Positions 3,058-6,453 of a DNA stretch of 64,000 nt are shown piece after piece (the stretch's first letter is position 1; each line of letters starts with the position of its first letter). Where the stretch lies: the NCBI GenBank assembly GCA_017441585.1, contig JAFRWW010000009.1:130456-194455 (forward strand), given 5' to 3'. Below the pieces are notes generated by a model. The model did not search any database. It saw nothing but the letters and a program-made list of their open reading frames with translations, and was not told where the DNA came from. A program made the translations under genes and the position numbers. The stretch is from Lachnospiraceae bacterium. GTDB lineage: Bacteria; Bacillota; Clostridia; Lachnospirales; Lachnospiraceae.

Positions 3058-4020
3058 TCAGCGTATTGTCCTCAATACATTCATGATATCATCCAGATGC
3101 TTTTTATCCCTATACAGATACAGGACTACTACTATCCCGTCACCATGCTCCTGGAAAACGAACTCGGTAAGATATGTCTCTCCTGTGGAGCGCTTAAAAT
3201 TACTGCGGTAATATTTATATTTAGGGCCGTAAGCTGAAGTGATTTCCCGAAGTGGGAACTTTCCACTCACATCTTTTTTAAGAATATCCTTTACGATGGC
3301 CTTTTCGATACCCTTATTGTCATTTCTGTCATTGACATCCACCATCTTTGTCTTATCAAAATAAGTCACGAACAGGCATTCCGAGTAGGCCTCACCCTTT
3401 CCCAGTTTATTAAGCTTATACTGATAACCTTCGATGCTTCCCAGTTCATTTTCCCTGATATCGACTTCCACATTTTTCCAGCCATCGGGAATATTAAAGC
3501 TCACCTTGCCGTCACTTATCACACGCTTATTTTCTTCGCTGATGCGAAGGGTCCTGCCATTAGCCGTGGAATAGACAGTCCCCGTGACAGTCTTTATCCC
3601 GCTCCTCTCTATCCTGTCTATGTCAAGGCTCACCTTTCCCAGCATATTCTTGTTTATCCTGAAAAAAAGACGGACCTCATCATTTACCGAAAGACCGCCT
3701 GAATTCCTGCCATCATTTTTAAAATCAACCTTTGCACTTTCATCCTCCGGAGATGATATGGAAACAGTCTTCCCACCAAGATTTAACGCCCTGACAATTC
3801 CGTATGACCAGTAATACTTATTCCTGTATTTATCTGCGGCTCTGTCAGACCCGGCAGCAACAGACAGCTCACTCAAGTCTATGTACTCATAGGATGGATT
3901 TTCATCCGGATCCATATCCACGACGGGTGTGTTAAAGGCCAGACCGCAATTAACGATAAATGTTACCGCCAAAAGAAAAATACACAATATTCTTTTTACA
4001 AAAGCCTTACCTTTCCTCAT
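3058..4020 (-). CDS. Exported protein at the end of the exb-type operon
   Basis: About 320 residues. The N-terminus is basic then hydrophobic (MRKGKAFVKRILCIFLLAVT), a signal peptide or membrane anchor; the IVNCG that follows is a poor lipobox. Two regions can be inferred: residues about 55-140 are beta-rich and OB-like, and the C-terminal half (from FNIPDGWKNVEV to the final helix) is laid out like PsbP/LpqN-type beta-sandwich proteins. No enzyme motif is seen. An in-frame GTG at 4038 is an alternative start; the ATG at 4020 is preferred for the compact signal sequence. Either start overlaps the upstream gene, which implies coupling. Function unknown; probably an extracytoplasmic partner of the ExbB/ExbD-like pair. 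Confidence 0.75.
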   Translation of the reverse strand: MRKGKAFVKRILCIFLLAVTFIVNCGLAFNTPVVDMDPDENPSYEYIDLSELSVAAGSDRAADKYRNKYYWSYGIVRALNLGGKTVSISSPEDESAKVDFKNDGRNSGGLSVNDEVRLFFRINKNMLGKVSLDIDRIERSGIKTVTGTVYSTANGRTLRISEENKRVISDGKVSFNIPDGWKNVEVDIRENELGSIEGYQYKLNKLGKGEAYSECLFVTYFDKTKMVDVNDRNDNKGIEKAIVKDILKKDVSGKFPLREITSAYGPKYKYYRSNFKRSTGETYLTEFVFQEHGDGIVVVLYLYRDKKHLDDIMNVLRTIR

Positions 4021-4486
4021 AGTCAAACCCCAACTCACTCTTTAGATTTTCTATAAGGGCATCTGTCTCTCTATAAACTTTTGAATCGGCGTAGTCATCC
4101 ACCAGCACCACCGTCAGTTTTTCTGAGGTCACTTCACAGATCAAACTTTCAACGTCTGACGTCGATGTTTTTTTATTAAGGGTACGGCCGCTCGTATAAA
4201 ACAGTTCTTTTCCCCTTATGCGGAAAGTCACACGTGCGGGGATACTTTCACTGGCAGCAGCCGCATTTACAGCGTTGTCGTTTTTAGCGTTGTCGCTTTC
4301 AGTATCAGTCTCATCAACTTCGGCTACGCCTTCTTCACCTTCCTCATACTCATCTCCAAGCTGAGCAAATTCAACCGCCTTTTCGAGATCTATCAGATCG
4401 TGTTCCAACAGATCCACAGGCTTATCAAAGATTGAAGTCAGACTTCCCACTAATAAAATTGCGGCAATGAACTTGCTATTTATCAT
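4007..4486 (-). CDS. Single-span protein with ExbD-like C-terminal domain
   Basis: A 159-residue protein with one N-terminal hydrophobic segment (residues about 5-18), an acidic low-complexity linker (about 45-80, rich in E, D, N and A), and a folded C-terminal domain of about 75 residues. That domain ends in a strand-helix unit (LTVVLVDDYADSKVYRET, then a long helix) resembling the periplasmic domain of ExbD/TolR, but the proton-carrying transmembrane aspartate of true ExbD is missing. AGGTAATAAAT precedes the ATG. It lies fourth in the operon and overlaps the next gene. The ExbD-like reading is inference from pattern, not a scored match. Confidence 0.7.
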   Translation of the reverse strand: MINSKFIAAILLVGSLTSIFDKPVDLLEHDLIDLEKAVEFAQLGDEYEEGEEGVAEVDETDTESDNAKNDNAVNAAAASESIPARVTFRIRGKELFYTSGRTLNKKTSTSDVESLICEVTSEKLTVVLVDDYADSKVYRETDALIENLKSELGFDYEER

Positions 4487-4504
4487 ATTTATTACCTGTC
4501 AAAA

Positions 4505-4535
4505 ATTCTTCGTCACTTCGTTCCTCAGAATGACA
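4505..4535. repeat. Family A dispersed repeat (gap of exb-type operon)
   Basis: ATTCTTCG..TTCGTTCCTCAGAATGACA, one copy of the dispersed family A element, fills part of the 76-base gap between two operon genes. It is nearly the same as the copy at 47942-47974 (TCCTTCG..CTCAGGATGACA). Confidence 0.8.
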
Positions 4536-4562
4536 ATAATTAAGTGACTCATTCATCTGTCA

Positions 4563-5090
4563 TTAATCATACTCATACGTACAGCCCTTATCATTTATCA
4601 GTTTCAACAATTCATGATAAGTAGATGAAGCGGCAAAATCATCCTGAATGTATACCTTTACGATCTTTCCGCTGCTCATTTCCTTCTCCAGGATCTCATC
4701 CACATCCTCAGGCAGATTAAGTGCCTGTCCCTTATAATGCACATCCTTGCCATGCACCACAAAAAGGATATCGTATTTTTCTCCCGTAGCCTCGGATACA
4801 TATTCTCCGGGAGCAGTGTTCAAACCACGATCACCATAGGCCAGCCTGTATCCCGAATAAAAAAGGATCATGCCTACCGCAAAAAATACAAGCATATAAG
4901 CCCAGTATCTGCGCCGCTCTCTCTGAAGCATTTCAAGACCGGCAGGCGTATTAAAATGTGAATAATCGTCCTTGCGCTTTATTACGATCTGAAAGCTCCG
5001 ATACAAAGGCTCCAGAATATATAACAAAGCGCCTATAACTGAGACCGTTATACAGATCCCTCCGATTATCATTAAAACATAAGGCAGCAT
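4563..5090 (-). CDS. Two-span membrane protein with ExbD-like C-terminal domain
   Basis: A 175-residue protein. Hydrophobic spans lie near residues 5-30 and 68-85, separated by a charged cytoplasmic loop (FQIVIKRKDDYSHF). The last 75 residues form a small extracytoplasmic domain with a strand-helix ending (KVYIQDDFAASSTYHELLK) similar in pattern to the domain in the next gene and to ExbD/TolR. The start is one base after the ExbD stop, with AGAAGGAAC upstream, so translation is coupled. The exact role is unknown; it may widen or regulate the proton-channel complex. Confidence 0.75.
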   Translation of the reverse strand: MLPYVLMIIGGICITVSVIGALLYILEPLYRSFQIVIKRKDDYSHFNTPAGLEMLQRERRRYWAYMLVFFAVGMILFYSGYRLAYGDRGLNTAPGEYVSEATGEKYDILFVVHGKDVHYKGQALNLPEDVDEILEKEMSSGKIVKVYIQDDFAASSTYHELLKLINDKGCTYEYD

Positions 5091-5091
5091 T

Positions 5092-5616
5092 TCAGTTCCT
5101 TCTCTTCACATGCTCCGGATCGGAAGCAACCATTTCATCTATGATCTTATTGATACTGTTTTCATCACGATACAGAATATCTTCATCCCCTTCATTAAGG
5201 GATATTATCATGGTCTTTTCCGGATTGTTCTTTACGGCATCCTGCAGATAGGTACGAAGCGCATTCAGTCCTTCTTCCACATTTGTGCCCTTTAACTGTG
5301 CGATCTCATGCATCTGTGTATCCACGGAAGAATCCAACACCTCTATGTGTCTCGTGATCACATCACTGTCATAATGCGCATTTATTGAAATGAGAACCAC
5401 ATACTCGGACACGGCGGATATGGATTCCATCTGATCCTTGTAGAGTTTCTGTGAGCTCTGAGCCTCATTCATCATGGTCTGCGCCAGGGCTTCTTTTTCG
5501 GCGGCAGTCTCATCCATGGTCTGCAGCCTGCATATAACGATCAGCAGCACTATGAAGATCACGTCCAGAAGGGACGTGAGGTCTATCAATATATTTCCAA
5601 CCGATTTTTTTCTCAT
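5092..5616 (-). CDS. ExbD/TolR-family protein
   Basis: A 174-residue protein with a short cytoplasmic tail, one transmembrane helix (residues about 10-29, LIDLTSLLDVIFIVLLIVI) and an extracytoplasmic part. D18 in SLLDVIF matches the conserved aspartate that carries protons in ExbD, TolR and MotB-type stators; D12 is a second acid in the same helix. Residues 35-90 look like a coiled coil, and the C-terminal segment (MIISLNEGDEDILYRD, then a helix) fits the ExbD periplasmic fold. It should pair with the ExbB-like protein encoded just upstream. In diderms this pair powers TonB- or Tol-dependent work; in a monoderm the powered partner is unknown. Confidence 0.85.
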   Translation of the reverse strand: MRKKSVGNILIDLTSLLDVIFIVLLIVICRLQTMDETAAEKEALAQTMMNEAQSSQKLYKDQMESISAVSEYVVLISINAHYDSDVITRHIEVLDSSVDTQMHEIAQLKGTNVEEGLNALRTYLQDAVKNNPEKTMIISLNEGDEDILYRDENSINKIIDEMVASDPEHVKRRN

Positions 5617-5636
5617 ATCTTAAGTTCCTTATAAAA

Positions 5637-5785
5637 GATCCTTCGCTATGCTCAGGATGACAAAAAATCAGATCATTCTCTACGCTCAGGATGACAAAAA
5701 TCAGATCATTCTCTATGCCCAGGATGACAAAAATCAGATCATTCTCTATGCCCAGGATGACAAAAAACAGATCATTCTCTACGCT
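5637..5785. repeat. 33-bp tandem array of the family A repeat
   Basis: Units start with GATCATTCTC at 5671, 5704, 5737 and 5770, exactly 33 bases apart, and a diverged unit starts with GATCCTTCGC at 5637. Each carries the family A core CTCAGGATGACA or CCCAGGATGACA. The array fills nearly all of the 168-base gap between the ExbB-like and ExbD-like genes. The period of 33 keeps reading frames open on both strands, which creates false ORFs. Unlike a CRISPR, there are no distinct spacers. Confidence 0.93.
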
Positions 5786-6330
5786 CAATCTGCGATATTC
5801 CCAAGTTTCAGCGCATTGTTAAGTTTTTTCTCATAATTATCAAAGATTATCTCCATATCGGATATGGTCCTGGCAGGGAAGATGGCATCCATCGCCTTTA
5901 ACAAAATAGCAAATACCAGACCCCAGAAGGTGGAATTCATGGCCAGATTTAACGAGCCGATCACCATGTCTATATCGCCGGTACTAAGCTGTTCTATGAG
6001 ACCTGCAACGGTACCTAAAATTCCAAGCAGAGGAAAAATAGGGATGAGCTGCGCCAAAACCTCATGGATGGACCTTACCTTATTGAACTTAAGCTCCAGT
6101 TCCCTGATGGTATCGGGAGTCACCTTTTCCTCATTTTTTATATCTTCCACTTCACCGGTATTCTTGTTCACGAAGGTCCTGGTATTCTTCCAGTCCATAA
6201 GCGAATTAATGTAATTATTCTGGGTCCGCAGCTCCACGTAATTCCAGAACAGAAAACCGGTCACCAGCAATCCTGCTATGATGATAACCGCTATCATGTT
6301 TGATGAGATAAACTTATATATCTGACTCAT
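5785..6330 (-). CDS. ExbB/TolQ/MotA-family proton channel protein
   Basis: A 181-residue inner-membrane protein, first gene of the operon. It has one N-terminal helix (about 10-30), a cytoplasmic loop (35-92), and two closely spaced helices (about 95-114 and 127-148). PLLGILGTVAGLI (100-112) is the family signature, and the helix with SLNLAMNSTFWGLVFAI matches the last ExbB/TolQ helix. It is much shorter than MotA or the ZorA of Zorya defence, so a compact ExbB type is favoured. GAGGAGGGATT precedes the ATG. It would form the pentameric channel around the ExbD-like helix. The family is firm, the cellular task unknown. Confidence 0.88.
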   Translation of the reverse strand: MSQIYKFISSNMIAVIIIAGLLVTGFLFWNYVELRTQNNYINSLMDWKNTRTFVNKNTGEVEDIKNEEKVTPDTIRELELKFNKVRSIHEVLAQLIPIFPLLGILGTVAGLIEQLSTGDIDMVIGSLNLAMNSTFWGLVFAILLKAMDAIFPARTISDMEIIFDNYEKKLNNALKLGNIAD

Positions 6331-6404: not shown

Positions 6405-6446
6405 AAAAAACAGTGCTGCCTTTTATTATACCAGACAGCACTGTTT
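6405..6446 (-). terminator. Terminator hairpin of the YbjN-like gene
   Basis: Arms AAACAGTGCTG (6408-6418) and CAGCACTGTTT (6436-6446) form an 11-bp perfect stem with a 17-base loop, followed on the minus strand by further T residues. It lies after the stop of the gene ending at 6490. The loop holds TATAAT, see the promoter entry. Confidence 0.75.
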
Positions 6447-6453
6447 TCGTTAA
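6425..6453 (-). promoter_or_regulatory. Possible promoter of the exb-type operon inside the terminator
   Basis: On the minus strand TTAACG (6448-6453) and TATAAT (6425-6430) are separated by 17 bases and point to the ExbB-like gene. The -10 lies in the loop of the terminator hairpin. The -35 is a 4 of 6 match, so this is a moderate call. Confidence 0.45.

Follow-up and report, generated by a model that had tools for sequence, protein, structure and literature searches.

A conserved ExbBD-related operon with ExbD-like partner genes in Lachnospiraceae, a candidate ion-driven machine of the single-membrane envelope

Five same-direction genes, designated B, D, C1, C2 and E, lie on the minus strand at 6330-3058 of the 64,000-nucleotide stretch of Lachnospiraceae DNA analyzed here (the window), and they are best explained, with fair probability, as encoding a member of the ExbBD/TolQR/MotAB superfamily of ion-driven motors that has become adapted to a cell with only one membrane. 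That B and D belong to the MotA/TolQ/ExbB and ExbD/TolR motor superfamily has good support. B-D-C makes up a conserved core, with one C sufficing in most other lineages, and ExbD-fold proteins on the outside of the single membrane are probably what the motor moves, against the wall. The ExbBD-type motor and its dedicated partners are conserved in many one-membrane gut and rumen bacteria and extend to Hutsoniella of the Lactobacillales. Should the motor be functional, it would bring proton power to a thick-walled envelope by a route of which no description was found; a literature search, in which few subscription papers were covered, returned no paper on the operon. In one review ExbBD counts as a Gram-negative trait (PMC9389320), and a recent survey holds the Ton genes of one-membrane Clostridia to be likely non-functional (PMC12204202); the conservation described below argues that the present system is functional.

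The earlier note on this DNA had proposed an ExbBD-type motor operon, and this identification is supported by the match of B above the Pfam cut-off, the invariance of the channel residues, and the homology of the D transmembrane (TM) segment taken with the structural match of the D head. B (5785..6330, minus strand; 181 aa) is a compact ExbB/TolQ-like channel protein that matches Pfam MotA_ExbB at E 7.2e-12 (45.6 bits vs a cut-off of 22.9) and carries the conserved motifs FPLLGxLGT and ALxSTxxG. Its Thr107 and Thr134, in TM2 and TM3, are invariant in 123/123 homologues; we take these to be the channel-lining threonines of ExbB and TolQ. In a tree with few outgroups, 93 B proteins form one clade (support 0.77) apart from 43 other ExbB/MotA proteins. 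D (5092..5616, minus strand; 174 aa) is an ExbD/TolR-like protein whose TM residue Asp18, in the motif LTSLLDV, is invariant in 120/120 sequences. The window D itself scores under the Pfam ExbD cut-off (E 5.5e-4; 20.4 bits vs 25.4), and Pfam ExbD matches 52 of 73 D family members at E<=0.01. Comparison of D with diderm ExbD by hhalign gave 93% (P 3.2e-7), a match carried by the TM segment, which also matches TolR at E 0.0025; the D head alone gave no match to ExbD by hhalign (P 0.012).

The AlphaFold2 (AF2) model of D (pLDDT 89.5) has a single continuous helix at residues 13-70 followed by an outer domain at 71-174. Among 998 chains compared, the best structural match of this head is E. coli TolR 5by4 (Z 8.1, rmsd 3.0, 81 residues aligned), and ExbD 8vgd matches at Z 7.2 over 70/72 residues. 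The fold match of the head is weak on its own, because unrelated RNase-H-like chains come nearly as close (Z 7.3), and has to be taken along with the homology of the TM segment; on this model an ExbD/TolR fold is assigned to the D head with moderate confidence. An alternative in which ExbD function is split and the D head is unrelated was dropped after the D structure was modelled.

C1 (4563..5090; 175 aa) and C2 (4007..4486; 159 aa), both on the minus strand, had been described as ending in ExbD-like domains that lack the channel aspartate, a description borne out by profile-profile comparison and family matches. Judged by sequence comparison, the likeness of C1 and C2 to ExbD is above chance: hhalign of the C family against 37 ExbD heads gave 95% probability (P 2.6e-8), and the profile-profile score against ExbD was 36.9, compared with 13.1 for the best of 60 column-shuffled or reversed decoys. 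NCBIfam ExbD_2 matches 2 of 13 C family members (best 2.3e-6), single-sequence Pfam matches of C domains are weak (6/68, best 9.4e-4), and a C-domain profile run against the PDB retrieved ExbD 8pek at E 0.083 only, among chance matches. The fold proposed for C rests on these sequence comparisons. Acidic residues occur in C TM segments in only 7 of 246 cases. C1 is predicted to have two TM helices with a cytoplasmic loop between them, and C2 a single N-terminal helix; the two helices of C1 are predicted in 41/42 loci of the five-gene form, and in the short form, with its one C, a single helix is usual. A post-helix motif of C2 (LLEHDLIDL) is found in 39 of 41 distinct five-gene loci (shuffled mean 3.7, maximum 9) and may correspond to the site of the intermolecular strand in ExbD (PMC10771500). 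No C domain was found elsewhere in the host genome. Orphan C-type proteins beside AddAB-like genes, with no B or D nearby, were seen at two other loci (L225:3990-4520 and L226:4221-4628).

E (3058..4020, minus strand; 320 aa), an exported or anchored protein with one predicted N-terminal TM helix, is modelled as an OB fold plus a Mog1/PsbP-like domain. Its start is best placed at the ATG at 4020, a position at which Met is almost invariant in the alignment of the family. Pfam tRNA_anti-like OB matches 27 of 51 E members, and the AF2 model (pLDDT 91.7) matches PsbP 2xb3 with Z 10.2 and rmsd 3.4 over 134 aligned residues; other fold matches include the envelope proteins LpqN and DcrB, and also BT_1490. 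No catalytic signature was recognised in E.

All five genes lie at the positions first reported for them. The accompanying claim of overlapping or near-zero spacing holds for D-C1 (1 bp) and C2-E (overlap of 14 bp) and fails for B-D (168 bp) and C1-C2 (76 bp). The B-D gap is occupied by a 33-bp tandem repeat of 4.6 copies (5636..5787), whose core CTCAGGATGACAAA is dispersed in the genome; the core searched as CYCAGGATGACAAA has 25 genome copies on both strands and 0 in the reversed control. Upstream of B, an extended -10 promoter-like site (6425..6453, minus strand) with 10/12 consensus matches is a consensus match only, the number of such sites being not above that in shuffles. An Rfam search gave no match. 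Domain searches of the operon agree with the earlier note that it contains no TonB, OmpA domain, helicase or nuclease. Convergent with the operon, at 1399-2965, are an HTH-like gene and a Ser/Thr kinase gene (1832-2965) with C-terminal membrane helices; this pair did not recur at other loci and was therefore left out of the system.

Relatives were collected by a protein search followed by a profile search of 392 Lachnospirales genomes, a full-length compact B being defined as one scoring >67 bits; 44 of the 392 genomes have one. A phylum-wide sample of 398 genomes held nothing above 53 bits for B except the host genome, and 80 further loci, mostly from rumen and gut Lachnospiraceae, came from scanning named genomes. 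Other holders are Ruminococcus, Defluviitaleaceae, Erysipelotrichaceae and Hutsoniella sourekii (Lactobacillales; strain ATCC 700629 has the three-gene form); the family is thus centred on Lachnospirales, yet not limited to it. No relatives were found on viral contigs. A relative of the same genus (UBA1753, Lachnospiraceae) has its locus at L006/L020, on the contig of L134. Removal of near-identical B (>85%) left 93 distinct loci across Bacillota, and nearly all keep the order B-D-C, the exceptions being contig ends and one locus (L024) whose C is found on a separate contig of that genome; genome G143 retains C although it lies on a different contig from B-D. The full B-D-C1-C2-E set is present in about 40-42 distinct loci (from a tally of 94 rows in which the window is counted twice), 23 of them with an AIM24-family gene upstream, and more than half of the distinct loci have no E. 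Median intergenic gaps are 2.5, 3, -4 and -4 bp, with approximate starts because the genes were called with a simple ORF script.

As these locus counts start from B, the reverse search from C matters. The C domain is present in 42 of the 392 genomes, and 40 of the 42 have B; counted the other way, C is found in 40/44 genomes with B vs 2/348 without (G109 and G122; Fisher p 1.4e-47), a p-value that overstates independence because the genomes are related, although the pattern still spans several families. Strong matches to E (>140 bits; full-length or C-terminal) occur in 8 of the 392 genomes, 8/8 with B, and weaker ones cover the generic OB domain only. Unrelated folds in the accessory domains combined with a failure of the genes to co-occur had been named in advance as fatal to the idea of a single machine; in both the neighbourhood search (93 loci) and the co-occurrence search (392 genomes) the genes stay together. 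The conservation argues that the system is under selection and likely to be working. Its contexts are stable housekeeping ones, such as topA-BDC-ilvN-ilvC and mgtE-BDC-degV. In the neighbourhood search for a telling partner AIM24 alone recurs, lying immediately upstream of B in roughly one distinct locus in four; this family (PF01987) is absent from the window operon, and the host copy is on contig C42. ABC ATPases, MATE, DegV and topA/ilv were rejected as partners, being general or lineage context.

The window lies on contig C52 of a 2.7-Mb host genome that is 85% complete. Searches of this genome for Omp85, TonB-dependent receptors and TonB_C found none, controls being positive, and the host does look one-membraned, as had been supposed; this reading is slightly weakened because the assembly is incomplete, and taxonomy agrees with one membrane. 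The host has a separate flagellar MotAB (L033). Beside glycosyltransferase genes at L034:1493-4205 (genome G000, contig C57) lies the gene for a second, non-flagellar MotA-like protein of 525 aa, and next after it one for a MotB-like protein of 325 aa.

The system has most of the motor-superfamily features examined, and lacks those looked for that would mark it as Ton, Tol-Pal, Zorya or MotAB. With the Tol-Pal stator TolQ-TolR it shares a B of the MotA/TolQ/ExbB family and a D with a TM Asp and a predicted TolR-like head; unlike Tol-Pal, it has no TolA, TolB or Pal in the operon and no Omp85 in the genome, and unlike TolQ-TolR it has extra ExbD-related proteins, E, and a longer stiff D stalk. 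With ExbB-ExbD it shares the conserved channel Thr and Asp, and matches of the C domains include the periplasmic domain of ExbD and NCBIfam ExbD_2, whereas the host genome is without TonB or a TonB-dependent receptor and ExbD-type heads are found on two or three proteins. MotAB and Zorya ZorAB belong to the same channel superfamily; unlike MotAB, the partner subunit here has no Pfam match to an OmpA-type peptidoglycan-binding domain, and unlike Zorya there is no long ZorA tail, ZorB OmpA-type domain, ZorC or ZorD, the PADLOC result being a weak ZorA similarity.

By analogy with the 5:2 motor model (PMC9389320), the mechanism proposed is that B would form a pentameric ring around an axle of two D TM helices, with D Asp18 and B Thr107/Thr134 as the path taken by protons (or sodium ions). 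Above the membrane D would extend as a stiff helical stalk, some 35-40 residues long, bearing the ExbD/TolR-fold head. Because the channel residue is absent from C, the membrane-anchored C proteins are best regarded as partnering the D head, and may pair with it or relay from it; in the extended form C1 and C2 would pass movement on to the exported OB/Mog1-fold E. The surface worked on is likely to be the wall's inner side, or else a client attached to wall or membrane. ExbD/TolR heads are known as strand-swapped dimers that switch conformation and bind peptidoglycan (PMC4646322, PMC10771500), the TolR head doing so once opened (PMC4646322), and since such heads switch shape and bind peptidoglycan the wall is the most economical target; it is a guess, because no wall-binding signature or recurrent wall-related neighbour was found. 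That the operon represents a new class of envelope machine, with movement carried outward via three ExbD-type heads (D, C1, C2) to E and exerted on the wall from within, is put forward tentatively, at somewhat less than even chances.

Other explanations rank in the order transport, sensing, defence and dead remnant. The motor could be a one-membrane counterpart of Ton that drives loading or release of E as a secreted binding protein, with a macromolecule or ligand moving through the thick wall. The likeness of E to LpqN and DcrB is in keeping with this, as is the fact that the ExbBD family otherwise energises transport; it is nevertheless unlikely, since over half of the distinct loci dispense with E and no transporter or receptor neighbour recurs. 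A gated ion path that reports the state of the wall or membrane and does no work would fit the cytoplasmic loop of C1, and regulatory genes do adjoin single loci: a two-component system follows L021, and FIST/MCP-like genes precede L019. These neighbours are not recurrent, however, and a long stiff axle with up to three ExbD-type heads suits force transfer better, which makes sensing quite doubtful. Kinship with Zorya anti-phage systems, suggested by weak ZorA matches (PADLOC 7.8e-5) and by the nearby Ser/Thr kinase gene (1832-2965), is improbable given that the ZorB peptidoglycan domain, ZorC, ZorD and any other effector are missing, the contexts are stable housekeeping ones and the kinase does not recur. 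A non-functional Ton remnant, as stated for one-membrane Clostridia in PMC12204202, is hardly credible for a system with invariant channel residues, a multi-gene order kept over 93 distinct loci and a B that forms its own clade.

For the ion-driven motor, the three-gene form is simple, so that the system is directly testable. Compact ExbB loci of a different arrangement (L126-L133, phylum sample) were excluded from the family; in these an ExbB of ~150 aa and an ExbD are preceded by genes of ~320 and ~600 aa. At L019:5921-8771 the FIST-domain-like and MCP-like genes lie directly upstream of AIM24 and the operon.
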